DNA from: Sycobia sp. Sy_11
Lineage: Eukaryota > Arthropoda > Insecta > Hymenoptera > Epichrysomallidae
Reading direction: 5' to 3'
Assembly: GCA_018907035.1 (NCBI GenBank)
Contig: JACCIC010000215.1
Span: forward strand, 1 to 64,000
Length of the DNA: 64,000 bases
In this document: positions 7,862 through 47,989 of the stretch, piece by piece
Layout: every line of letters starts with the position of its first letter
How positions within the stretch are numbered: the stretch's first letter is position 1
Translations under genes and position numbers: made by a program
The notes under the pieces: model-generated
Database searches by the model: none
Seen by the model: the letters and a program-made list of their open reading frames with translations, nothing else
Told to the model about the DNA's origin: nothing

Positions 7862-9100
7862 ATTTTTTTTTTATAGAAGAGGAGAAAAATCCTTTATGGA
7901 TCCCGGGGCCTGTACGCGGGTATGTAGGAGTCTCCTTCGCTTAAGGTGCAAGCATAGCCACTAAAACGACCCCCTTGATACATTCCCCTTGACCGCTTCG
8001 CGCAGCTCTAAGAGGAGCTATAGGTCCGAGTCGCAGGGGCCCTTCTTTCCGGTGGTGTGTACAAAACAACCCAGGAACCGCCAATGTGGACATTAATTCT
8101 GGACTGCGCCACCGTGTTAGCCCTTAAGGAGCTCTCCCATCCTCAAACCTGCGTTTCTATTCGAGAATAATGGGTATAACACATGCGATAACTAACACCC
8201 GCGACCCAGAGACCGTCCGGTAGGAGCTCGCGACAACCAGCCCCTGTCTGGACACAAGGTCCATCACTCTTCCGCCGCTGGAATCCGGTCGCTCCACACA
8301 CCATTCTAGGATCATATCGTTAAAGTGTTCAGCCACGATCTGTTCATCCTGTGTCTTCCAAGTTATCTATGATAGCTTGTTAGTCACCTCTGGTTTGGTT
8401 TGATGTGAGGTAACAACTCACGTACGTGAGCTGGTTGCTCCTCACCCAAACATAGCCATTTCCAGTTACATGGTCCACGACTAAAAATCGCCGCGAGTTA
8501 GTTATTCAAATAGCTGTCGTCCCAAGATTATCCATATACTATCTCAGTTCATCTCTGTTACGATACTGTTCGCTAATGAGAGTCATATCAGCCCCTGCAT
8601 CGATGCAGATCTGAGCGAGTAGGTGATCAGTCGTCCTACTCCTATTTATGTTCCCTTGCAGAACTAGAACCATCTTGCCGTCTTCAAAGGGGCCACGCGA
8701 AAGACCGGGCAGACGTTAGATCCGACCACGTGCCTGCACCCGTCCGCGTTTGCGTGTCCAGGGCATAAGAAGCACATGGGATTAGCTTTACAGTGAGCCC
8801 CGTTTTGATCCTCTTGCCCGCAGCGATAGCAACAGGCACTTCTATTCGGGCATCTACAACGATGGCTCCGGTGGCCATAGCCTAAGCACCGACAGCATCT
8901 AGTTACTATGTCCCGCCTTCATACATGACAATTCACGAGGCCAATTCTCCCTGGTCAGCAACTTCAAGAATCCGACCTCATCCAAGACGATAATAGCAGC
9001 GCACTGCTCCACTGTATTAGATTATCGATAATCAAGCAGATTGCTCTTGAGAATCTCCCACACAGCTCCCCCGTGTTCGTACGTCGAATGGCTCTGATAT
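7862..9100 (-). mobile_element. R1-clade LINE, internally deleted copy
   Basis: Minus-strand fossil of the same LINE family as at 17577-22100. From 5' to 3': zinc-knuckle end of ORF1 (about 8900-8690), the endonuclease start at 8673 (MVLVLQGNINRSR), a YVSCYLTPN-like piece near 8450, then a jump to the RT C-terminal region (SSYRTVSGSRVLVIACVIP, about 8250-8190) and a 3' untranslated region alignable with 17590-17830. A T-run at 7864-7873 on + is the poly(A) tail. Most of ORF2 is deleted and several stops occur. Confidence 0.8.
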
Positions 9101-9124: not shown

Positions 9125-9260
9125 TGTAACGTTCCTATCCCCCTCGGGATAACCTACGCGGTATCTTCCCAGGGTAGTTTGAGAGGGGAGGAAGTTTTTC
9201 AGGATCGGGCGGCGGTTTCAGGAAAATAATTTTACAAGAACACAGTATAAATTTTTTATA
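9125..9260 (-). repeat. inverted copy of the gypsy LTR end (IR-A, left arm)
   Basis: This 136-bp block is the near-perfect reverse complement of 16981-17116, the last part of the gypsy 3' LTR (TGTAACGTTCCTATCCCCCT at its left edge). It sits where a 5' LTR would be expected but in the wrong orientation, and is preceded by a short AAT repeat and the LINE copy. Confidence 0.9.
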
Positions 9261-9662
9261 CTATAAATAGTATAAAAAATTATTTATACAGGGACTAGTA
9301 TTATAAATCCGAAAAATTTATATTTGAATAAAGTTTATTATTTCTGAAATTACAGAATAATTTCTTTAAGCGGAAATTTTTTTTTAATTGTTTATAAAAA
9401 ACCGTATTTTTTCGATTTGTGTGCAAAGAGCCTAGTGGCGGTCTAAGCGACTAGGTGCTAAGGCGGGTTGAGCCGAAGCACGAAGTAATACAAATAGGAA
9501 ATTTATTTAAAATTTTATCGTTTTGAAAATAGAAAACTCAAATAATAGTTTTCTTATAAATAAAATAAAAAGAAATTATTTTCTCCGTTCCAGAAAGAGT
9601 TAAAATTTAAAATATTACACAGTATATTTTTTTTTTATATATAAATTTCAAATCTTGCTAAA

Positions 9663-10625
9663 ATGGCAAAACCGCGCGTGAGCTGGATCTATAAACTGAC
9701 GAAAGAGCAAATCGAACGAGAACTCGCTAAAAACAATTTACCTATAGAAGGTACAAAAGCGTATTTGCGACAAAATTTAATTTCATATGTACGGGCTCAC
9801 CCGGATCTCTTTTTCGACAAACCGGAAGATGAAAAAGACTTCAACGAAGATGTAAATCGAACTCAAGATCTTGAAGAAATTGAGGAAGAATTTCGTCAAT
9901 TACGTATGCAACTCTTAAACCAACAAGCAGCTGCATCAACGTCCAGTCCAGTCGTGGCACACCCAGCTGCGAACACACCTTTTAGCACTCCGCCTGCTAC
10001 TGTATACGTGCAGCAACCGTCGACTGCACAAGAAAACGCCAAAGTGATGGACCAAATGAGAAAGTGGAATTGTCACTTTGATTGCAAAAACTTACACTTT
10101 TTCCTCGAAAGGATGCATGAGTTAAAAAGAGCATATAATTTATCCGAACAGCAAATTTTGAATGGATTCCCGGAACTATTGCGAGGTGATGCACAATTAT
10201 GGCATAGGAATTATGCCTCAAATTTTAAAACGTTTTCGGAATTAGAAGAAGGGTTAAGAAAATTCTATTTATCACCTAGCGAACGTCGAAATCTTGGTCG
10301 ACAAATCCATAACCGTGTACAAGAATCTAATGAAGACATCCGTGCATTCGATAATTCATTAATTACACTAATGAGGCGTCGAGGAGGTTTTACGGAAGAA
10401 CAAAAAACCGAAACGATGTACTACAATATGCTCGCCGAATATAGATTACATATTCGTCGTGATGACGTCACAACAACGTCAGATATCGTCCAACAAGTAG
10501 AAGAGTATCTGGAAACCAAAAAACAGTGTGAGAGACAGAAAATTATGAAAAATCACACTTCCACACCAGCTCACTCTTCCAATCACACTTCCACCATCAA
10601 GAAAACCGGAGATCCGATTACATAA
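9663..10625 (+). CDS. gypsy Gag (capsid-like) protein
   Basis: A 320-codon frame from ATG 9663 (context AAAATGG) to TAA 10623-10625. The first 50 residues resemble a SAP-like helix-turn-helix (LTKEQIERELAKNNLPIEG), followed by an acidic, Gln-rich linker with a predicted coiled-coil flavour (about residues 60-90), a Pro/Ala/Thr spacer, and from about residue 125 the capsid-like helical region (MRKWNCHFD, WHRNYASNFKTFSELEEGLRKFYL). Such Gag proteins build the cytoplasmic particle and package the RNA. The zinc knuckles that should end the protein lie just after the stop in another frame, so the ORF is probably prematurely ended by a frameshift. Confidence 0.85.
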   Translation: MAKPRVSWIYKLTKEQIERELAKNNLPIEGTKAYLRQNLISYVRAHPDLFFDKPEDEKDFNEDVNRTQDLEEIEEEFRQLRMQLLNQQAAASTSSPVVAHPAANTPFSTPPATVYVQQPSTAQENAKVMDQMRKWNCHFDCKNLHFFLERMHELKRAYNLSEQQILNGFPELLRGDAQLWHRNYASNFKTFSELEEGLRKFYLSPSERRNLGRQIHNRVQESNEDIRAFDNSLITLMRRRGGFTEEQKTETMYYNMLAEYRLHIRRDDVTTTSDIVQQVEEYLETKKQCERQKIMKNHTSTPAHSSNHTSTIKKTGDPIT

Positions 10626-10659
10626 TTTTAACAATAAAATTGCTTCAGTATACGACTGA

Positions 10660-10830
10660 ACTAAGTGTTGCTGGAAGTGCAAACAAATGGGCCACGATCG
10701 TTTTATGTGCACAAACCAGCAAAAAATCTTTTGTTCATATTGTGGCCGTGATAATGTGTACACCCGTAATTGCAAGTGCCACCCGTCGGGAAACGCCAGG
10801 AGGGCTGAGCCCACACCGAACCTAGCTCGG
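10660..10830 (+). pseudogene. Gag zinc-knuckle region, out of frame
   Basis: In the frame beginning at 10666 the sequence CWKCKQMGHDRFMC forms a perfect CX2CX4HX4C knuckle, followed by CSYCGRDNVYTRNC in which the histidine position is occupied by tyrosine. Nucleocapsid knuckles bind the element's RNA. This frame differs from both Gag upstream and protease downstream, which share a frame; a stop (TGA 10654-10656 region) also precedes it. Either two compensating indels or a natural gag-pol frameshift plus one mutation would explain it. The repeated AAC triplets near 10840 would be a candidate slip site. Confidence 0.65.
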
Positions 10831-10834
10831 CCCA

Positions 10835-11732
10835 ACAACAACTAGAAATAGAAACCGACAACAGACATTTTGTAAGAGTAATGATCGGCGATTACGAAGT
10901 GTCAGCCCTTTTAGATACGGGATCAGTAAGTTCCTATGTGAGTGAACAACTGAGTGAAATTTGTGTGAAATTCGGATGGCATACTGAGCCAAGTAATCGA
11001 ATTGCAGTCTTGGCAAATGGCTCAGAAATAAGCCTTGGAAGAAATATGTATGGACCAATATATGTGCAAGGAAAAAGATTCCAACAAAAATTTTTAGTAA
11101 TGAATGGATTGAGCCATCCTATGCTCTTAGGTATGGATACTCTAAAAAAACTTGAAATCCATATAATATTAAACAACTGTGAGATAAACAAATCAGTAAA
11201 CGATCAAATACATCAAGTATGTACAATTGATACATCGTACGGACTACAGGTTTTAAATCCAACTGAACGTCAGCGATTAGAAAAGTTTTTAAAAACAGAG
11301 ATGGATAAATTTAACTTTATCAAAGGTCCTACTCCGCTCCTGCAACACGAAATCGTCGTGGAAGAAAAAACACCTATTAAACAGAAATATCGGCCAAGAA
11401 ATCCGGCCATGCAAGAAATTATCAATCAGGAGGTTGATAAAATGCTAAACGAAAACGTAATTCAACCGTCAAGCAGTCCGTGGAGTTCACCAGTCGTTAT
11501 TGTAAAAAAGAAGGACGGAAAAGCACGATTCTGTGTGGATTTCAGAAAAGTAAATAAGGTTACAAAGAAAGACGCTTATCCTCTTCCGCAAATTAATGCT
11601 ACACTAGACAAGCTAAGAGGAGCCCGATATTTATCCACATTAGATTTAAAAAAATGGATATTGGCAAGTAGCTCTAACACCAGAAAGCCGTCCTGTCACC
11701 GCCTTTACCGTCGCCGGAAAAGGCCTATATGA
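10835..11732 (+). CDS. gypsy Pol, part 1: aspartic protease and RT N-terminus
   Basis: Open in frame from about 10841; the annotated ATG at 10881 is internal to it. Residues from 10905 show the retropepsin signature SALLDTGSVSSY and the second conserved block HPMLLGMDTLKKL, so the active-site Asp is present. The RT follows: NENVIQPSSSPWSSPVVIVKKKDG, FCVDFRKVNK and DAYPLPQI. The frame then breaks after LSTLDLKK: an A run at 11648-11654 has one extra base compared with the expected reading, after which the protein continues in the next frame. That single-base change could be a real inactivating insertion or an assembly homopolymer error. Confidence 0.88.
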
Positions 11733-12498
11733 ATTCAACGTAATGCCGTTTGGCCTACATTCAGCACCGGCTACCTTCCAACGACTCTTAGACAGAATGA
11801 TCACTCCGGAAATGGCTCCGTATGCATTTGTATATCTAGACGACATCGTAGCAGTCTCGTCTACGTTTGAGGAGCATCTACAAAACTTAAAAGAAGTTTT
11901 CAACCGGTTAAGAATAGCGAAATTAAAACCCAATCCAGATAAATGCCATTTCGCCCGCTCAAGTCTAAAATATTTAGGACATATTGTAGACAAAAATGGT
12001 CTACAAACCGATCCGGAAAAGGTGGCTGCTGTGCTAAATTTAGCACCACCTAAAAACATGAAAGAAATTCAGCGATTTATGGGTCTAATAACATGGTACA
12101 GACGATTTCTTAAAGATATCTCAAATGTTGCCACACCACTACATCGACTTACTAGAAAAAAAGCTAAGTTGACCTGGGGAGAAACCGAGCAAGATGCGTT
12201 TGACAAAATTAAGCAGCTTCTCACAAACGCACCCATCCTTTCCTGTCCAGACTGGAGCCGCCCGTTTATCCTGCAAACGGATGTCAGTAAAGAAGGATTG
12301 GGAGCTGCGCTTACTCAAGCGTATGAGAACAATGAACGAGTCATCGCCTTTGCAAGTCGAACACTCTCCCCAGCCGAAAAAAACTATTCCGCCACTGAGC
12401 TAGAATGTCTAGCAATTAAATGGGGTGTGTGGAAATTTCGAGATTATCTGGAAGGATATCATTTTATTGTACTCACCGACCATCAATCGCTAAAATAG
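11655..12498 (+). CDS. gypsy Pol, part 2: RT palm and RNase H
   Basis: After the frameshift the reading resumes as GYWQVALTPESRPVTAF and continues through MPFGLHSAPATFQRLLD, the catalytic YLDDIV (11833-11844), the thumb and connection (GHIVDKNGLQTDPEKV, LGHIV) and RNase H (FILQTDVSKEGLGAAL, SATELECLAIKWG, LTDHQSLK). It ends at TAG 12496-12498 where gypsy elements normally have Trp, consistent with a TGG to TAG change. All catalytic residues visible up to that point are intact. The sequence in frame after the stop continues the same protein. Confidence 0.9.
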
Positions 12499-12918
12499 CT
12501 TAACAACATAGAGAATCCTTCCGGTCGATTAGCCCGCTGGGCACTTGAATTAAGCCAGTACGACTTCGAAATTGAATATCGTCCTGGTAAAGATAATTTA
12601 TTAGCCGATACTCTATCTCGACAGCCGCTAGCCGTCGAAGCAACTACAATTAAAATCGCAGATTGGTACGAAAAAATATACAAAAATGTGGAGAATGATC
12701 CTGAAAACTATCCCGATTTTTGTATCATTAATGGAAGATTATATAAGCATATTTTACACACATTAGACTTTAATGATAGGAGTGAAAATTTGCAATGGAA
12801 GATCTGTGTACCGAAATCCGAACAACATAGAGTACTAAACGAAGTACATAACGATCCTACTGCTGGTCATCTAGGAATCTCGAAAACTCTTGTTAAGATA
12901 TCCAAAAGCTATTACTGA
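12499..12918 (+). CDS. gypsy Pol, part 3: RNase H end, tether and integrase zinc finger
   Basis: Same frame as the preceding segment, immediately after the TAG. It shows the RNase H tail (LSQYDFEIEYRPGKDNLLAD with the conserved late Asp), the tether, and the first half of the integrase HHCC zinc finger (LNEVHNDPTAGHLGISKT). It stops at TGA 12916-12918 in a SYY-stop-PGM context, where related integrases have Trp (YYWPGM), so a TGG to TGA change is likely. Confidence 0.88.
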   Translation, partial: LNNIENPSGRLARWALELSQYDFEIEYRPGKDNLLADTLSRQPLAVEATTIKIADWYEKIYKNVENDPENYPDFCIINGRLYKHILHTLDFNDRSENLQWKICVPKSEQHRVLNEVHNDPTAGHLGISKTLVKISKSYY

Positions 12919-13890
12919 CCTGGAATGCTCCGGATGACAACAAACTATGTAAGAAATTGCCAGAATTGTCACCAATTTAAATCTCAACAACAATCACCGG
13001 CTGGAAAATTGCATGCGACGTTAGTCGAACAGCCTTGGGATATCGTGGCCGTTGATCTTATAGGACCACTCCCAAGATCAACAAAATTGAACACCTGGCT
13101 GTTAGTCATACAGGATAAATTAACAAAGTGGGTAGAATTAAAACCCTTACGAAAAGCGACTGCCGAGGCTATAACGCTGGCAGTTAAACAGCAAGTCATT
13201 CTACGTTTCGGATGCCCGAAAATTATAATTTCCGATAATGGACGACAATTCGTGTCAAAAGAATTTACGGAAATGCTGTCAAAATCCGGAATAACTCACA
13301 GAAAAACACCACCGTATACGCCGCAGTGTAATCCAGTAGAGCGAGCAAATAAAGTAATAAAAACCATGATTTCTCAATACATAGAAAAAAATCATCGAAC
13401 ATGGGATTGCTATTTGCACGAGCTACAGTTCGCGTATAATACCGCTACATCCGAAACAACGGGATTTACACCCGCTTACATAAATTTTGGAAGAGAATTA
13501 AGAGCACCCCAGTCTCTTGTCCAAAAATTTGGTCAAAATTGTAATATTACAGCCGAGAATCGGATCAAAAAAATACAAGAGACAATAGAACTTGTACAAA
13601 GTCAACTAGCTCGGAGCTTCCAAAAACAAAAACATTACTACGATCAAAACCGTCGAAAATGGAACCCGGAAATCGGCGATTATGTATATAAACGTTCACA
13701 CGAATTATTAAATAAAATAGACGCTTTTAACGCAAAATTAGCTCCAAAATATCTGGGTCCGTATACTATTGTCAGGAAGGTATCGCCAGTTATATACGAC
13801 CTGAAAGATAATAAAGGTCAAATTATTAAACATATTCATATTAAGGATCTACGTAAAAGATATAACAATCTAGATAAGATACCACCTTGA
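12919..13890 (+). CDS. gypsy Pol, part 4: integrase catalytic core and C-terminus
   Basis: Continues in frame after the TGA. NCQNCHQFKS completes the HHCC zinc finger. The catalytic DDE triad is present: D in VDLIGPLPRS, D in ISDNGRQFVSKEF, E in NPVERANKVIK. The GPY-type C-terminal module appears as KYLGPYTIVRKVSPVIYDL. The natural stop is TGA 13888-13890. Integrase inserts the element's DNA copy into chromosomes. Apart from the upstream nonsense codons this segment looks functional. Confidence 0.92.
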   Translation, partial: PGMLRMTTNYVRNCQNCHQFKSQQQSPAGKLHATLVEQPWDIVAVDLIGPLPRSTKLNTWLLVIQDKLTKWVELKPLRKATAEAITLAVKQQVILRFGCPKIIISDNGRQFVSKEFTEMLSKSGITHRKTPPYTPQCNPVERANKVIKTMISQYIEKNHRTWDCYLHELQFAYNTATSETTGFTPAYINFGRELRAPQSLVQKFGQNCNITAENRIKKIQETIELVQSQLARSFQKQKHYYDQNRRKWNPEIGDYVYKRSHELLNKIDAFNAKLAPKYLGPYTIVRKVSPVIYDLKDNKGQIIKHIHIKDLRKRYNNLDKIPP

Positions 13891-13935
13891 ATCCACTATA
13901 TAAGGGCCGACCAGAGGCCCAAGTGTTCAGTCAAA

Positions 13936-14403
13936 ATGCAGCACCCTGTCGAACGAGAGCTCTGCCGTCAATTCCTGGAACTCAGTGTTCCCATCAAGTG
14001 CTATGGACTACCATTCCATGCACTAATTAATACTGGGACACTGATGATCACGGCTTCAGCAGAAATCGGCAGAATACTTGAGCGACGTGGTGCTCGGCGT
14101 GTATACGGGGAAGCGGTTCTCCACCTTAACTGGGACCCGTTATAGACCGTTGATCCCGTCAACGTTGTATCCACATACACGCTGGAGGTGGAGTACACCT
14201 GCAAGGATAAAACTAGGATCAGTAATTTCGCCATAGTCTCAGACCAGCCCGTGGACATCATTTTTGGTATGGCAGAAATTAATAAAATCGGATTTCGCAT
14301 TCTATGGAACTTAAGAAGTCCAGCAGCCAATGGAACGTCGCCGACAAAACAGGCGACTACATCGAAAAGCAGCCAGAAGAGTCGTCGCCAGACTAGAAGA
14401 TGA
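13936..14403 (+). CDS. second retropepsin-like ORF downstream of integrase (one nonsense codon)
   Basis: Begins at ATG 13936, 45 nt after the pol stop, in the place usually held by env or nothing. 156 codons to TGA 14401-14403, with one in-frame TAG at 14143-14145. It resembles an aspartic-protease fold: a VPIKCYGLPFHALINTGT strand-turn that aligns with the pol protease's SALLDTGS, and after the stop SNFAIVSDQPVDIIFGMAEI aligning with the HPMLLGMDTL block. The catalytic Asp is Asn here (codon 14029-14031), so as it stands it cannot be an active protease; a G-to-A change would explain it. The tail is Ser/Lys/Arg rich. Function unknown; identification rests on motif order only. Confidence 0.6.
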
Positions 14404-14914: not shown

Positions 14915-15528
14915 ATGTATAAAAATCTACTTACCCGAGCGCAGCGCGACCTGCTCGTCGCCGAGCAGGAATTCAATAACATATTAAGAATACCGGTACG
15001 TCCGCGTTTGATCGTACCTCCAGCACGACCGCCTCGTCTGCAGGTGGAAGGTCCACGATCGTCCATATTAACACACGTCGTGCCGAAACCTACAGCCGTC
15101 CCTCCGTGATCCGGACGTGCCTCCAGCCGACGGCGAGCAGCCCGCGCTGCCGATTGATGCCCGAACACCCGGGCCACCACGACCTGCGCCGCCACTGCTT
15201 CCAGCAGAACACACCGCTCTGCTGGAGATGCCGTCGATACCGGCACCCGAGTATAAACCACACGGTTCGGCCCCGACGGACGACGCGCGTCCCGGGCGTG
15301 CGTTTGTCTACGACGAGGAAGCTACTCTGTTTTTCCGTCTGGGAGCCGTGCGGCATCGCGAGCGAATCGGGGCATGTGCGATGCATCACATGCTCCGAAA
15401 AGAAAATTTGTATGTACATGTTCACACTTTTATATTTAAAACACACACATTATTTTTTTTGTAATACACATTTCATTTTTTTATACACACAATATTTTTT
15501 TTGCACTATACACACGCGCCGCGCTCCC
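14915..15528 (+). CDS. Pro/Arg-rich accessory ORF of the gypsy element (frameshifted)
   Basis: A GC-rich island in an AT-rich setting. ATG 14915 opens a 64-codon frame (MYKNLLTRAQRDLLVAEQEF, then Pro/Arg-rich) stopping at 15107-15109. Two other frames are open directly after: one at 15117-15464 continues Pro-rich (PGPPRPAPPLLPAEH, then DEEATLFFRLGAVRHRE), another at 15106-15555 is Cys/His rich (LCWRCRRYRHPSINH and EPCGIASESGHVRCITC). I cannot tell which continuation is original; the Pro-rich one fits the composition better. It ends near the polypurine tract. No known family recognised; the composition contrast suggests real coding sequence rather than chance. Confidence 0.4.
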
Positions 15529-15543
15529 GAAAAAGGAGGGAGA
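15529..15543 (+). promoter_or_regulatory. polypurine tract (plus-strand primer)
   Basis: GAAAAAGGAGGGAGA lies directly before the TG that begins the LTR. Reverse transcription of LTR elements uses such a tract to prime the plus strand, and its exact placement fixes the LTR start at 15544. Confidence 0.75.
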
Positions 15544-15958
15544 TGCGACGGCTAAAAACATGGCCGCGCAAATTTATTTCGAACAAAGAATTTATGATAC
15601 GCGTTAAAATTTAAATACTTAAGATGGTGTTACATCTAATTTGGGTGGATGTATTTTACATACACGGACTTAGATGTATAAACGCCACAAGAAATAATAT
15701 CGAATATCATTAGAAATAATATATTAAATATATTATTTCTACAATTATAAAATTAAAACTCACGTATACACCGAATAAACACCGAAAACCGGGCAAACGT
15801 CGCGACGACTACTGGAGAAGGTAGTCGTCGCAACTGCCGAAACTCGAACAAGTAGAGAGAGAACGCGATATCTAGTCTCTCTCTCTCTCTACCACTAAGT
15901 TAAGTACAGAGTATGCCGTAGAGGGGATACACTGCGCGCGGCAAGAGAGAGCGCGTTC
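15544..15958. repeat. inverted repeat IR-B, left arm
   Basis: About 415 bp at the start of the LTR is nearly perfectly complementary to 17164-17576. Together with the 1.2 kb between the arms it would form a large stem-loop. Confidence 0.9.
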
Positions 15959-16072
15959 AATGTATTAGACCGGCGGCCGCTATCCCCTCTAATACGTGCC
16001 GCACGCACACTACTGCACGCTCTCACTAAACAGCCTGAGCCGCAACGAATGTAGCGAACGCGCGAATTCCAG

Positions 16073-16081
16073 TATATATAA
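16073..16081 (+). promoter_or_regulatory. LTR TATA box
   Basis: TATATATAA preceded by a GC-richer stretch with CpG sites, about 530 bp into the LTR; transcription would start about 30 bp further right and define the start of R. Confidence 0.6.
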
Positions 16082-16509
16082 CGGGTGTCCGAAAACCAAT
16101 GCACCCGCTGTATTTAATTAAATTAATTAATACAAACGATTTAATATACGCATGATATATAAATATATGTAAATAAATGTTTAAACTTGTACACATGTAT
16201 ATTATTACTGTGCGCAGCAAATCGGCTGCAAATAATAACAAAATCTAAAACAATAATTATTATTGATTATTATTATTATTGTAATTATTATTATTGTTAA
16301 TATAATTATTATAATTCGGCGCCTCGTCCGAAATTAAACGAGCGGCGACGGAATTATCCGATTATTTTATTATAAAAGGGCCAGCAAAAGTCAAAATCGG
16401 CAGTTCGCCCGGTGAAGCAACTGCCCCGAAGTTGTTCCACACGAACTCCTTCCGGAGCTAGAATCTTTGCAGAGCTCAAACTAATCCTGTCTTTTAAAAT
16501 TCCTCTCCG

Positions 16510-16569
16510 AAATTATTAACTTGATCTCTGTTGCGAGGCGCTCCTCAAAAGACAGACGGTTAATAATTT
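16510..16569 (+). ncRNA. LTR RNA hairpin 1
   Basis: Outer stem AAATTATTAAC/GTTAATAATTT (11 bp, perfect), inner stem TCTGT/ACAGA, then an asymmetric internal loop (TGC/AAAAG) and an apical GAGG-CGCT-CCTC stem-loop. The apical core is identical to hairpins 2 and 3, while both stems differ in sequence and still pair. Confidence 0.75.
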
Positions 16570-16578
16570 TACCTTTCC

Positions 16579-16634
16579 TAAGTAAACGTGATCCTGGTTG
16601 CGAGGCGCTCCTCAAAAGACCAGCAGTTTACTTA
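16579..16634 (+). ncRNA. LTR RNA hairpin 2
   Basis: Outer stem TAAGTAAAC/GTTTACTTA (9 bp, perfect), inner stem CTGGT/ACCAG, the same internal loop and apical GAGG-CGCT-CCTC. Compared with hairpin 1, three inner-stem pairs and most of the outer stem are replaced by compensating pairs. Confidence 0.75.
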
Positions 16635-16664
16635 TCCCGACTAGAAACTCTCCCCTTAGCTCTT

Positions 16665-16708
16665 GATCCTGGTTGCGAGGCGCTCCTCAAAAGACCAGCG
16701 GAGTTAGG
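16665..16708 (+). ncRNA. LTR RNA hairpin 3
   Basis: Outer stem CTTAGCTC/GAGTTAGG (8 pairs, two of them G-U), inner stem CTGGT/ACCAG and the same apical core. Third member of the array at about 75-nt spacing. Confidence 0.7.
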
Positions 16709-16980
16709 TTTTCCTTATTTTTTATTCCACTTAAAATCAACCTGTCTCGGTTCATTAGTTCCCCGCGTGGAAAATAACACCGGGTATTCGTGCGGTAATT
16801 AGCGCCGAATATTAGAGACATTGCGGAAAATAGCGCAAAATTAGCTTAAATAAAAATATAGATCTAGCAGTAAATTACTGTTATTAATTATTTTTGTGTT
16901 TATATTTATTTGTTACAGAATCCTGTAGATAGAGGAACTGGTCTATTTTTCACAAATAAATAAATATTATAAATTTTTGT

Positions 16981-17116
16981 TATAAAAAATTTATACTGTG
17001 TTCTTGTAAAATTATTTTCCTGAAACCGCAGCCCGATTCTGAAAAACTTCCTCCCCTCTCAAACTACCCTGGGAAGATACCGCGTAGGCTATCCCGAGGG
17101 GGATAGGAACGTTACA
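16981..17116 (+). repeat. LTR tail, IR-A right arm
   Basis: The last 136 bp of the LTR; its reverse complement stands at 9125-9260, giving an inverted pair about 7.7 kb apart that brackets the gypsy coding region. Confidence 0.9.
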
Positions 17117-17128
17117 TGGCGCCCGAAC
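17117..17128 (+). other. primer-binding-site-like sequence (tRNA-Lys type)
   Basis: TGGCGCCCGAAC directly follows the LTR end, as the minus-strand primer site of many retroelements does. Its presence to the right of the LTR means the LTR also begins another, truncated element copy, which breaks off at the inverted LTR piece at 17164. Confidence 0.6.
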
Positions 17129-17163
17129 GTTACATGACGCCTACGCGGTATCTTGAATACATG

Positions 17164-17576
17164 GAACGCGCTCTCTCTTGCCGCGCGTAGTGTATCCCCT
17201 CTACGGCATACTCTGTACTTAACTTAGTGGTAAAGGGAGAGACTAGAATCGCGTTCTCTCTCTACTTGTTCGAGTTTCGGCAGTTGCGACGACTACCTTC
17301 TCCAGTAGTCGTCGCGACCTTTGCCCGGTTTTCGGTGTTTATTCGGTGTATACGCGAGTTTTAATTTTATAATTGTAGAAATAATATATTTAATCTATTA
17401 TTTCTAATGATATTCGATATTATTTCTTGTGCCGTTTATACATCTAAGTTCGTGTATTTATGTAAAATACATCCACCACATTAGATGTAACACCATCTTA
17501 AGTATTTAAATTTTAACGCGTATAATAAATTCTTTGTTCGTAATAAATTTGCGCGGCCATGTTTTTGGCCGTCGCA
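17164..17576 (-). repeat. inverted LTR start (IR-B right arm)
   Basis: Reverse complement of 15544-15958, ending exactly at the LTR's first base (TGCGAC on minus at 17576). The LINE poly(A)/3' end abuts it on the right. An inverted LTR piece next to a PBS is what self-integration or recombination between nearby copies could leave. Confidence 0.88.
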
Positions 17577-18099
17577 ATTTTTGAGGAAGAGGAGGAGAAA
17601 AATCCTTTATGGATTCCGGGGATCGGTCCAGGGGAATGTAGGACTCACCTGTGAGGGCATACTCACTAAAAAACTACCTCCTCAGTGCATTCCCCTCGAC
17701 TGCTTTCCAGAGCACTGAAAAGAACTGCGAGTCGGGATCGACAGGCGTGCATCGAAGATACCTCATCACGATGGCGTAAATACAGCTCAGGAACCGTCTA
17801 TGAGGACATTACTTCTGGGGTGCGCCATCCTATTCGCCCTTGCGGGCTTACACGCCTTCTTTGATTCTTCGTTTGTGGTCCAGGATGACCTTGCAAAAAT
17901 TTCAAATCCGGGACCACTTCACCGGGCTCTCCAGCATCAGCCGGATGATATTTTCAGGCCGATATGGCCCTATATCCCTCCAAATGCACTCCCTTTCGAG
18001 GGGAGCGCGACAGTGGGCATAGCTCGTATCCGGTACTTTCCCCATCTTGTGGAAATAGGATCGAAACCGACCGTGCCCCGATAAAAGCTGCGTAAGGTT

Positions 18100-20221
18100 G
18101 TAATTAACCTCTCCGTGCGACCTCTGGAACCATGGCTTTAACTGACTGATCAGTCGATCCGTCCATCAATCGCACGGATCCCTCTTCCAGCGCTTTTGCC
18201 ATTGGGTCATCGTGGTAGCTCTGGCCCGTGCAGCTGCCTCTATTCTGTTCAGAATATTTTTATCCTGGTGGACAACTTTCTTTTCTTGTGCTTGAAGATC
18301 AATACGAATAACACATACGATTACCAGCACCGCCGACTCGGAGACCGTACGGTAGCAGCTCGCGATGCGTAGTGCCCCTCTACGCTGCACTGCCACCATT
18401 CTTTTTCTATATTTTTGGGCCATCAGTGTATCGGCCCATACCTCCGCGCCTTATAGCATGATGGATTCAATTGCCCTTATGAGCAGACGCTGCTTGCAGG
18501 GTGCTGGGCTGCCGACATTGGCCTTCAGCCTGCCAAGTTGCGCTGTCATTCGGGCAGCTCTATCCGCCATTTTTTTTATTTGGTCCCAGAAGGTCAGCTT
18601 GGAATCAAGTGTCACCCCCAGGTACCTTACGGCTGCTTTGGTACTCACCGTCGCGTCTCCAACCTGCATAAGGCGTATCTTTGGGATACGTTTCTTAGTC
18701 AGGAGCACGATCTCCGTTTTCGCCGCCCACACTTCTGACCAATTACTCTCCATCCATTCCTCCACGCGACGCATCACCTGATTGAGTCGCATCTGTGTGG
18801 CATCACAATCTCTAGCGATGATGACAGCTGCTAAGACCGATCATTAAGGTAGTCACTCAAGATACGAAGTATATAAGGCGACACCCGAAAGTCTCGCTCC
18901 ATGGCCATCAAAACATTTGCCCATCCAACAGAGTTGAAGGCATTCCGAACGTCAATGGTAGCCAGGAGACATACAAGTCGAGAGTAGTGATTGCCTCTCT
19001 CTCTATGCGCCTCGCCGCATCCACAACCTCGAGGATTACGTCTACTGTCGCCCTGCCCCCCCCCGGAATCCATACTGTCTGTCAGACAAGCCGCCAGCAC
19101 CAGCAACAACCCCGAGGAGTCGTGGCTTCAATAGTCACTCCATCAGCTTTCCAGCGGTATCTAACATGCATAAAGGTCGATACGACGAGGGCGCCTCCGA
19201 CGGACCCTTGCCTTTGTCGATAAGCACGAGTTTCATCACCTTCCAGCAAGAATAAAATAAACCAGCCTTCAAGCACGAATTGTACATCGACAGAAGGAGT
19301 TCTGGATGCTCCTCAACTACTATTTTCAGCACCTCTCCTGGAATTCCATCAAGTCGTGGAGCCCTCTTATTCTCCAACCAACCGCTTTGCACGGCATCGA
19401 CTCTTCGCAAGCCCGTCGTAGAATGCGCATTGTGGCGCTAGTCAACTCCCTGGCTTGCTTAATTATCGATGAGCCATTTGGAATCCTAACAAGGCTTTGC
19501 TGACCGTGTTCAATGGCCTGTGAGAATTTCTCTCTATTTATCCCTGCAACTTTCCATCTAGGGGGCCCTCGCGTTGTGTTCGGTGAAACTTGGCGTCCCA
19601 TCACAAACGCGGAATGTGATGTACTGGTGATCGCTGGCTGTGTAGTCCTTGATCACTTGCCAGTCCTGGATTCCAGAGGCCAGACGTTCAGTCGCAAAGG
19701 TCACATCAGGCATAGTTTCGGCATAGCCCGGTCTCTTAAAGGTCGAAGTATTGCCAGTGTTTAGAACTATTAGACTTAGTCATGGACGCTAGTTCCATGA
19801 CTCTTCGAAACCTAGAGTCGGGCCCCGATATTTCTTATTTTAGGGCCCTTACATAAAAGTCACCTGCCATCGCCAGCTCACCTTTCAATTCTCTGACGGT
19901 GTCTTCCAGGTCATCAAGTATGACCCGGTAGTCACTTCTGGCTTAGTTTGGTGTAAGATAGCAACTCACATACGTGATGCGATTGCATTGTACCCAAACA
20001 TAGCCATTTCCAGATCCATCAGCCTTTACTTTTGTTTTTTGTGGGTCAGGAATCCAAATGGCTGCCGTTCCAAAGTTATCGGTGAACCAACGTACTCCTT
20101 CGCTGTTCTGATATTGTTCACTGATAATTAATATATCAGCATCAGTATCGTGGCAAAGCCGGAGAAAAAGGTGATCAGCTATCCTGCTGCGATTTATATT
20201 CCCTTGCAGAATTACGACCAT
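18100..20221 (-). pseudogene. R1-type ORF2: endonuclease and reverse transcriptase, catalytic core deleted
   Basis: Starts at ATG 20221-20219, overlapping the ORF1 stop. The endonuclease begins VVILQGNINRSRIADHL with LIISEQYQN and YVWVQCNRITYVSCYLTPN. The RT follows in pieces: LDGIPGEVLKIVVEEHPELL, SSYRPLCMLDTAGKLME, and motif A ATIDVRNAFNSVGW (about 18960-18920). At about 18835 the sequence jumps from SDYLND to AAVIIARDCDATQMRLNQV, so motif B and the [F/Y]ADD catalytic motif C are missing. The C-terminal region (VRYLGVTLDSKLTFWDQI, QRRGALRIASCYRTVSESAV) is still recognisable. The element cannot copy itself. Confidence 0.88.
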
Positions 20222-21570
20222 TTAACGTTTTTTGAGAGAGCCTCGCGAAAAGTCCGACAGGCGCCGGAACCGGCTACGTGCCGGCGTCCCTCTAATTTCG
20301 CTTCATCTTTGCAGAGAAAACATTCAGGTTCTGGGGTGCAAGCCGCAACCTTGTGCTCTCTCTATCCGCAACGATAACAATAGGTGCTACGGTCAGGGCC
20401 TTTACAACAATGGCTTCGGTGGCCATAGCCTAGGCACCTGTAGCACCTTGTCATTATTTCGCGGCGGCGTACTCGACAATTCACTAGGCCCACTCGCAAA
20501 AACCTGATCTTCAGCAGCTGCGTGGCAGCAACCTCCTCCAACACTACGATGGCAGCCCGCTGTTCCGCGGTGTTGATTTTAGTCACTCTGGCCTGCAACT
20601 CGCCACGATAATCTGGTAGTTTGCTTTTGAGGGCCTCACACACCTCATCCTCCGTCACGCAGCAATCCAGGTCTCTAATCTCTAGACTTCCTCTAGAGGT
20701 CAGCTCCCTGACACAGCCGCTTCGGCCTGTCGCTTCCTTGAGCACTTCAGCAAGTGCCTTCCGACCTTCGGGTTTGGTATGTCTTACTTCAATCAACATC
20801 TCACGCAATTGGGTTTTCGGGACGAATCTCACATCCGCGCCCAAGTCCTTCGGTTTGACCGCTCTGATGGACCTCATCACCTCAGCGTAGGATTTCCCCT
20901 GCGCTAGTTTAATGGCGATCGCATCGAGCTTTGGCCTTTTTTTTATTCCTGTTATTTTCTTCTTCAGATGCTGAGGTCGTTCCTCTGCATTCTGTTCACC
21001 GTGCTTCTTCTTTTTTTTTAACTAGATTCCATCCCTCTTTTTTATCCTCCTGCTCTCCCTTCTTTTTTTCTCCTTAGTAAGGGAGATATCCGGGGGACTT
21101 GATGCCGGTCTCTTCGGGGTTGTCTCTTCTCTCTTGCGCCTAGTTGTTGGGAAGAGACTCCCCGGTACCCTCTTCCCTTGTATTTTGTGCTGAAGAACAT
21201 CTACAAGCTCCTCAGCTTTTGGGAGTTTTTTGATGTTCATTGCTTTTATCATGTATTTGAGCAGCCGAGCAAGTTAGAGAATAATCTCCAGTTCACTCGA
21301 CTGTTCAACAGACTTAATCCCGGCCTCAGCCGGCTCTCTTCCCCACCCCAAGGTGACTTGTTTGTTACTTTAGGCAATCCATGGATCTATTTTATTACTT
21401 CATTCCTGCAGATGGTCGGCCTCGTGGACCCTTCAACGTTGAGCTCGATGAGGCAGCCCCCCGAACACATGCCTGTAAGGGCTGACCCATCTCGGACCAT
21501 TGTGCAGAAGTATAGCACGCCCTGTTGCGCTATTCTACCTCCGTCCTCTCGAGCTTCGCACCACAACAAC
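20212..21570 (-). pseudogene. R1-type ORF1 (Gag-like, CCHC knuckles)
   Basis: Minus-strand fragments: a basic N-terminal piece (21252-21022, KKLPKAEELVDVLQ then Arg/Lys-rich), and the main body 20880-20362 with the conserved EIRDLDCCVTEDEVCEAL and AAIVVLEEVAATQLLK region leading to CYRCLGYGHRSHC (CX2CX4HX4C). A TAG interrupts just after CYRCG; beyond it a second knuckle (CYRCG...EHKVAAC) and a third Cys/His cluster (CFLCKDEA...H...C) follow, ending KNVKWS at TAA 20214-20212. ORF1 proteins coat the element RNA. Stops and frame changes show it is inactive. Confidence 0.85.
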
Positions 21571-46863: not shown

Positions 46864-47255
46864 ATTGGTCTGGGGGGTCAATGTAAACAAGAACGGTCTG
46901 ACTGTTATTATAATTTTTAATTTAATTTTTATTTTTATTGTCTTTGTGTATTGATGTATTAATGTTAATGTAGATATGTATTGATATCGTTACGTATTGC
47001 TTTCGATTGATTTGATTGGACTGTAAGACCAATGAAAAAATATTTATTATTAAAGTAGCTTCTCAAATTCAATTTATGTTACCGATATTACTGGGTAGCT
47101 CATGATTATCTATATGAGTTATCTATATGATTTTCTAATAAAAGGGATAGTTTCTTTACCGTGAAGATCACATAAACTTCATTCATCAAAATCACTTGTT
47201 TTTTTCGGTCATGAGAGGTGTCACTTAACATTGAATCTTATATAATTATTTACAG

Positions 47256-47771
47256 AAAAGAAGCCAATGTTATGGAAAGATTAGCTGATATTGCAAATAC
47301 TGCTGTATTGAAAACTAATATATTTCAATCATTTCATCCATATAATCGCAGAAGTCAAGCAAGAATATTAAAACGGTCTAATAAAGCAGAGTATCTTTGT
47401 ACATTTATACAAAATAATTCTCGAATTCAATTTGAATATAAGGAAACTGTATCGAACAGTGAAGATTTAAATATTTTTGATCCACAGAATGAAAAAATGA
47501 AGAAACACTTTATACATAAAGAAAATCTACAAACTGGAATAATTAGAACTAACTGTATCGACTGCTTAGATCGTACAAATACTGCCCAATTTGCTATTGG
47601 TAAATGTGCACTTGGATATCAGTTGCATGCTTTAGGAGTTTTAAATTCTCCTAAGCTTGAGTTCGATACAGATTGTGTTCGTATGTTAGAAGAACTTTAT
47701 GAAGATCATGGAGACACATTAGCTCTTCAATATGGAGGTTCTCAGCTAGTTCATAGAATTAAAACCTATAG
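47256..47771 (+). CDS. FIG4: FIG4, internal exon E with the Sac catalytic motif
   Basis: Acceptor ATTTACAG after a TE-filled intron. One base completes the Gly codon from exon D, then [34 protein letters not shown] and [30 protein letters not shown] contains the CX5R phosphatase signature; the catalytic Cys is at 47554-47556 and the Arg at 47572-47574. [20 protein letters not shown] and LVHRIKTYR follow, as in all FIG4/Sac proteins. Ends in phase 2 with donor GTGAGG at 47772. No stop or frameshift, and splice signals are good, so the gene is probably functional despite its intron load. The remaining C-terminal exons were not found before 64000. Confidence 0.95.
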
Positions 47772-47989
47772 GTGAGGAATCATATATGAAACAACGATTG
47801 AGAAAAATAGGTGATAAACTCAATGCTCACAATTCGCTTCGAGTATTTTGCTCGCAAGTGACGTATAATATTGTTTATGCGAATGATACATTCATTTTAT
47901 ATTTACGAATTCCTTAATTATGTATAATGGAATAAACGAATGGGCGAATTTCAAAAATCAAAATACAATTCATAATAAAATAAAATAAA
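47772..47989. other. FIG4 downstream intron, no element
   Basis: Start of the next FIG4 intron, which appears to extend beyond the window because no later exon was recognised. Confidence 0.5.

Follow-up and report, generated by a model that had tools for sequence, protein, structure and literature searches.

Three tandem hairpins with invariant loops and covarying stems in an LTR-like unit of Sycobia sp. Sy_11

The LTR-like unit and its neighbours

Three + strand hairpins (H1, H2, and H3) lie at 16510-16708 of the window, by which we mean the whole 64,000-nucleotide stretch of contig JACCIC010000215.1 that was analysed; they were recognised from the sequence and from folding (Table 1). The array sits in a centre of approximately 1.2 kb that is flanked by inverted arms of about 420 bp. 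Downstream of the array, AATAAA is read on the + strand at 16849 and 16955, followed at 17116 by an LTR-like end, ...ACGTTACA (in its longer form, ...GGAACGTTACA). A primer-site-like string stands directly after this end, as in a gypsy LTR, and we read its 12 letters as the beginning of the primer site for tRNA-Lys3. This tRNA is named in the accessible part of one source (PMC1084362). At 17107-17143, the LTR-like end and the primer-site-like string stand in near-tandem (GAACGTTACATGgCGCC / GAACGTTACATGaCGCC) within a 16-bp inverted repeat. The arms of the unit (15544-17576) carry more hairpins, for example an AT palindrome of 31 nt found at both 15711-15741 and 17376-17406, and inverted-repeat pairs within 90 bases number 38 in 15500-17600.

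Two direct LTR copies around one internal region, as expected of a gypsy element, were not found in the window: self-BLAST gave inverted relations only and no second direct LTR, a result compatible with a solo or truncated LTR copy. Only one other piece of the window, 9125-9287, is related to the 3' part of the unit; it is an inverted copy that lacks the hairpins and begins with TGTAACG, 538 nt ahead of a + strand gypsy gag, and the interval from 9287 to gag showed no primer site on inspection by eye. Inspection by eye likewise revealed no target-site duplication at the arm ends, the left LTR end not being fixed. Because the window gave no second direct LTR, the inverted relative lies by gag, and no target-site duplication was seen by eye, we call the unit only LTR-like. 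The earlier note had placed the hairpins in the R/U5 region of a gypsy LTR; the TATA-box-like string, the AATAAA motifs, the LTR-like end, and the primer-site-like string agree with this assignment, but the missing second direct LTR, the inverted arms, and the inverted relative do not. The layout fits hairpins in the transcribed part of a putative + strand LTR; should 9125-9287 be the beginning of a 5' LTR, the element that holds the array would have the opposite reading direction.

The gag belongs to a decayed gypsy element (9663-13890) with frames for gag, protease/reverse transcriptase, and integrase. Its + strand gag frame (9663-10625) gives a gag match and a weak SAP match, and the gag, protease, and integrase families score above the Pfam cut-offs; among 35 relatives of the gag, two carry organism names, Lasioglossum (a bee) and Trichogramma (a parasitoid wasp), which would fit an insect host, probably a hymenopteran. 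After the integrase, two frames at 13891-14403 resemble by eye a second retropepsin-like stretch (LINTG versus LLDTG), with no Pfam match. Minus-strand frames resembling a non-LTR retrotransposon lie at 17588-20880 and match 7875-9023 at about 66%; inspection by eye suggests a Cys/His knuckle-like stretch at 20362-20880, and RVT_1 matches weakly at 18451-18840, short of the cut-off. A frame at 47218-47775 is related to Sac-domain polyphosphoinositide phosphatases and probably represents an exon, or a fragment, of a host gene. Words resembling tRNA A and B boxes, seen by eye at 9420-9490, are possibly SINE-derived; ARAGORN, run with the bacterial code, found no tRNA genes within the window.

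Table 1. Coordinates of the hairpins and of the features around them
Feature	Position	Strand	Description	Basis
Inverted relative	9125..9287	-	only piece of the window related to the 3' part of the unit; reverse complement of 16956-17116, hairpins absent	93.3% over 163
Left inverted arm	15544..15966	+	94.6% to 17156-17576 reversed	self-BLAST
TATA-box-like string	16073..16081	+	TATATATAA, upstream of the array; putative promoter	read from sequence
H1	16510..16569	+	lower stem AAATTATTAAC/GTTAATAATTT, inner stem TCTGT/ACAGA	sequence, fold, inverted repeat I6
Core of H1	16522..16557	+	36 nt (TGATC bulge, inner stem, internal loop, apex)	repeat family D2, 83% to H2/H3
H2	16579..16634	+	lower stem TAAGTAAAC/GTTTACTTA, inner stem CTGGT/ACCAG	sequence, fold
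Core of H2	16589..16624	+	36 nt	repeat family D2, reference
H3	16655..16708	+	lower stem CTTAGCTC/GAGTTAGG with two G-U pairs, inner stem CTGGT/ACCAG	sequence, fold
Core of H3	16664..16699	+	36 nt, same as H2	repeat family D2, 100%
Inverted repeat I8	17074..17154	+	perfect 16-bp repeat (17074-17089 / 17139-17154) enclosing LTR-like end and primer site	
Primer-binding-site-like 12-mer	17117..17128	+	TGGCGCCCGAAC, directly after ...ACGTTACA	sequence
Right inverted arm	17156..17576	-		self-BLAST

Hairpin anatomy and covariation

All three hairpins have the same order of parts: a lower stem, a TGATC bulge, an inner stem of five pairs (six if a U-G pair in the structure model is counted), a GC/AAAA internal loop, and the apex GAGG-CGCT-CCTC. 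The bulge, between lower and inner stem, is invariant in H1, H2, and H3. The invariant apex has a predicted loop of four letters, CGCT, and contains a self-complementary GCGC that lies partly within the predicted stem. In the direct-repeat search, the cores are spaced start to start by 67 nt (H1-H2) and 75 nt (H2-H3). The stems and loops named in the earlier note were recovered, in sequence and in folds, on the + strand where it had placed them; its spacing of ~75 nt holds for H2-H3 and not for H1-H2, and its internal loop TGC/AAAAG becomes GC/AAAA in our model, which adds one U-G pair to the inner stem. The TGATC bulge is an invariant part additional to those it named.

The hairpins align without gaps over 56 nt each (16512-16567, 16579-16634, and 16654-16709), a comparison that covers three repeats at one locus and not family copies. 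H1 forms all 19 pairs, and H2 and H3 form 18 each (55 of 57 cells, 96.5%); two-sided change is seen in 11 of the 19 pairs. The pairwise differences (18 between H1 and H2, 20 between H1 and H3, 17 between H2 and H3) all fall in paired columns, and the 18 unpaired columns contain none. The three-repeat alignment thus bears out the earlier claim that stem letters differ while pairing is kept, with two-sided changes and invariant unpaired letters.

When the register is slid by 1-3 positions, only 33-51% of cells pair, compared with 96.5% in register. No shuffle out of 500 matched the observed value on any of five measures, and the covariation score was 0.842 against a shuffled mean of 0.282 (0/500 as high), figures that are not formal probabilities, there being three rows, a structure derived from the same sequences, and a relatedness that the shuffles keep. 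Pairing holds in 28 of 30 lower-stem cells, a count equalled by 0 of 200,000 within-hairpin shuffles; flank shuffles reached the observed run 0 times for H1, 45 for H2, and 68 for H3, each in 20,000.

The fold energy of 16500-16720 is modestly under that of shuffles (z -2.37; 3/200 fold equally well). Inverted runs of at least 9 occur at 42 of 818 other centres of the element, and of at least 13 at 8 of 818, such long runs being frequent in AT-rich surroundings. Because stability is modest and inverted runs are common, what carries weight as evidence is that the repeats share one register, change on both sides of their pairs, and keep their loops frozen, not that they are stable. In longer contexts all three hairpins are still predicted to fold: H2 near certain, save for the two end pairs of its lower stem (first 0.87, last 0); H1 at about 0.75-0.8 for lower and inner stem; and H3 at 0.6 to 0.93 for its lower stem, with the first column unpaired. 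We consider the three-hairpin observation confirmed: it is real and exceeds chance.

Of the 57 pair cells, four are G-U and none is A-C when the hairpins are read as + strand RNA. The minus-strand reading keeps 18, 18, and 15 of 19 pairs in H1, H2, and H3, with predicted folds of -17.3 versus -19.3 (H1), -19.4 versus -20.1 (H2), and -14.7 versus -20.4 kcal/mol (H3) for minus and + strand, respectively. The G-U pairs, the lack of A-C pairs, and the weaker minus-strand folds together favour a + strand RNA, on small numbers.

The stems are also selective in their partners. Within a hairpin, the two lower arms pair at 10, 9, and 9 of 10 positions (H1, H2, and H3), whereas a 5' lower arm set against the 3' arms of the other hairpins pairs at only 2-5 of 10. 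Duplexes calculated with 14-nt flanks give -9.4 to -10.6 kcal/mol for own arms and -0.6 to -5.5 kcal/mol for foreign ones; the separation of the stems is not absolute, individual foreign duplexes coming to -4.8 and -5.5 kcal/mol. The purpose of differing stems might be that each hairpin folds with itself, and repeat loss in reverse transcription might perhaps be lessened as well.

Searches for relatives and comparison with known systems

A covariance model (R1), run over the 64,000 bases on both strands with filters off, detects just H1, H2, and H3 at E below 0.7; its 16 additional matches up to E 10, from E 0.73 upward, are chance-like. Searched at E up to 10, 16500-16720 has no match in Rfam 15; over 15400-17700 there were nine weak matches, all below gathering and none overlapping the hairpins, so a known Rfam element was rejected. 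Core patterns were absent from viral contigs and genome contigs, and blastn of 251 bases against phages gave no match; because the collections consist of viruses and prokaryotes, a missing core there means little. The statement in the earlier note that no equivalent is described agrees with the Rfam result and with the open-licence literature, in which we found none. Candidate identities of other kinds were also rejected. A 105-aa stop-to-stop frame spans the hairpins, but the spacing of 67 shifts H1 out of the frame of H2 and H3 and Pfam gives no match, which rejects a coding repeat. Clustered microRNAs are expected to be conserved in their stems and not in their loops; here the loops are conserved and the stems variable, the opposite pattern.

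Among described systems, the array may be compared with the retroviral constitutive transport element (CTE), which likewise consists of retroelement stem-loops with repeated internal loops of the same letters in multiple copies (accessible parts of PMC7551171, PMC4174252, and PMC4377836). The excerpted text of PMC4174252 gives AAGACA as the motif through which CTEs bind NXF1, and it describes a CTE-like hairpin of gammaretroviral origin that is active when tandemly repeated, having little effect at 1-3 copies and working from four. The array, too, has AAGAC on the 3' side of its loop region (AAAAGAC beside the internal loop in H1, H2, and H3), and the + strand of 15967-17116 has no AAGAC elsewhere. 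In contrast, the CTE has a single long stem carrying two 16-nt loops of identical sequence, whereas the array comprises three separate short hairpins, each with two small asymmetric loops (GC/AAAA and TGATC/C). The complete AAGACA, which in a CTE lies in an internal loop, is found in one of the three hairpins, H1, where four of its six letters (GACA) are predicted to be paired; H2 and H3 read AAGACC, and AAGACA is common in the window (24 on the + and 22 on the minus strand). With AAGACA in H1 only and mostly paired there, the array is not a CTE by these tests, though it may work like one.

Adjacent hairpins with the same tetraloop, GACG, are described for SL-C and SL-D of MuLV (PMC5874298, in part), but the array has three copies and invariant internal loops as well, and it lies upstream of the primer site, the MuLV hairpins downstream. 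The locust lncRNA PAHAL is an insect Gypsy LTR RNA with three tandem binding sites for the protein SRSF2; those sites are linear motifs (WSSNGYY), and hairpins are not reported in the accessible part of the source (PMC8786324). Cer1 of Caenorhabditis elegans, a Ty3/gypsy element, has a special export route for unspliced RNA, but the route runs via the element-encoded protein CERV, and the portion of PMC10309623 available describes no hairpin array.

A possible docking array and its alternatives

We propose, with a probability of about 0.5, that the array is a multivalent RNA docking site for a protein that reads the invariant loops. Such a protein is suggested by unpaired letters that are invariant in three copies while the stems are free. 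The three hairpins would be copies of one structured RNA element in an apparently transcribed part of a + strand LTR, each presenting a common face (the TGATC bulge, the GC/AAAA internal loop, and the GAGG-CGCT-CCTC apex) that the stems would merely hold. Having its own stem letters, each copy would fold with itself and not with a neighbour, and a protein recognising the invariant unpaired letters could dock up to three times per RNA. What the sequence itself shows is the structure, the strand preference, the invariant loops, the two-sided changes, and stems that pair mainly with themselves; transcription from the LTR, a protein ligand, and cooperative binding are all presumed in this proposal. 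The packaging, dimerisation, translation, or host-factor signal of the earlier note is likewise a candidate role only. The purpose might be nuclear export or other handling of unspliced element RNA, in the manner of a CTE without being one; the export step by itself is speculative, and we think it unlikely. Several points count against docking: the three repeats come from one locus only, AAGACA is incomplete in H2 and H3 and mostly paired in H1, the gammaretroviral hairpin needed four copies to work, the fold energy is only modestly under that of shuffles, some foreign arms pair appreciably, and the + strand LTR is contested by the inverted copy at 9125-9287 next to gag.

The hairpins could instead serve packaging or dimerisation, either because Gag binds them or because the apex GCGC gives loop-loop contacts between two genome RNAs, an explanation that we also hold to be unlikely. 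The self-complementary GCGC in an invariant apex speaks for it, and two MuLV hairpins with a common GACG tetraloop do pair loop to loop (PMC5874298, in part). A homodimer of the 30-nt core is predicted at -31.1 versus twice -10.8 kcal/mol, a gain that almost any hairpin would show on forming an extended duplex. However, dimerisation explains the apex and neither the invariant TGATC bulge nor the GC/AAAA loop, and so covers fewer of the invariant letters. Retroviral dimerisation sites, as far as the accessible text of PMC5874298 describes them, mostly have apical-loop palindromes of six or more letters, whereas GCGC has four, partly in the stem, and the predicted apical loop has four in all. 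If located in R, the hairpins would occur at both RNA ends, which would be unusual for a packaging signal.

Templated repair between arms at the DNA level (quasi-palindrome correction) could keep inverted repeats matched without any RNA function, and near-perfect stems would then be expected without selection. The richness of the unit in inverted repeats and its inverted arms are consistent with such a process, but correction should erase asymmetric internal loops, whereas the three copies carry them in identical form, and should leave G-U and A-C mismatches equally, where we see four and none (small numbers). We regard this explanation as improbable.

Also improbable is the possibility that the unit is an LTR on the minus strand or a DNA element of foldback type rather than a + strand LTR, the hairpins being DNA features or part of an unrelated transcript. 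The inverted arms, the lack of a second direct LTR in the window, and the inverted relative starting with TGTAACG before the + strand gag speak for it. Yet the primer-site-like 12-mer follows ...ACGTTACA on the + strand, inspection by eye shows none from 9287 to gag and no target-site duplication at the arm ends, and the G-U pairs favour a + strand RNA. A self-cleaving or otherwise catalytic RNA of unrecognised kind in three copies is very improbable: small ribozymes typically have invariant loops and free stems, and hammerhead ribozymes occur in retrozymes according to the literature accessible in part, but Rfam has no match here, no known core is recognised, and three cuts would destroy the element's RNA.

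It is conceivable, though doubtful, that the array represents an undescribed class in arthropod LTR retrotransposons, in which tandem hairpins with invariant bulges and loops and mutually non-pairing stems dock a host RNA-export or RNA-handling protein. To our knowledge, little is known outside a few models of how insect LTR retrotransposons mark, export, and package their unspliced RNA. The short invariant-loop motif is usable for genome-wide searching, as a protein bait, and in a reporter assay. The same face on different stems would also illustrate clearly how the form of a tandem RNA array can guard it from misfolding or from losing repeats.
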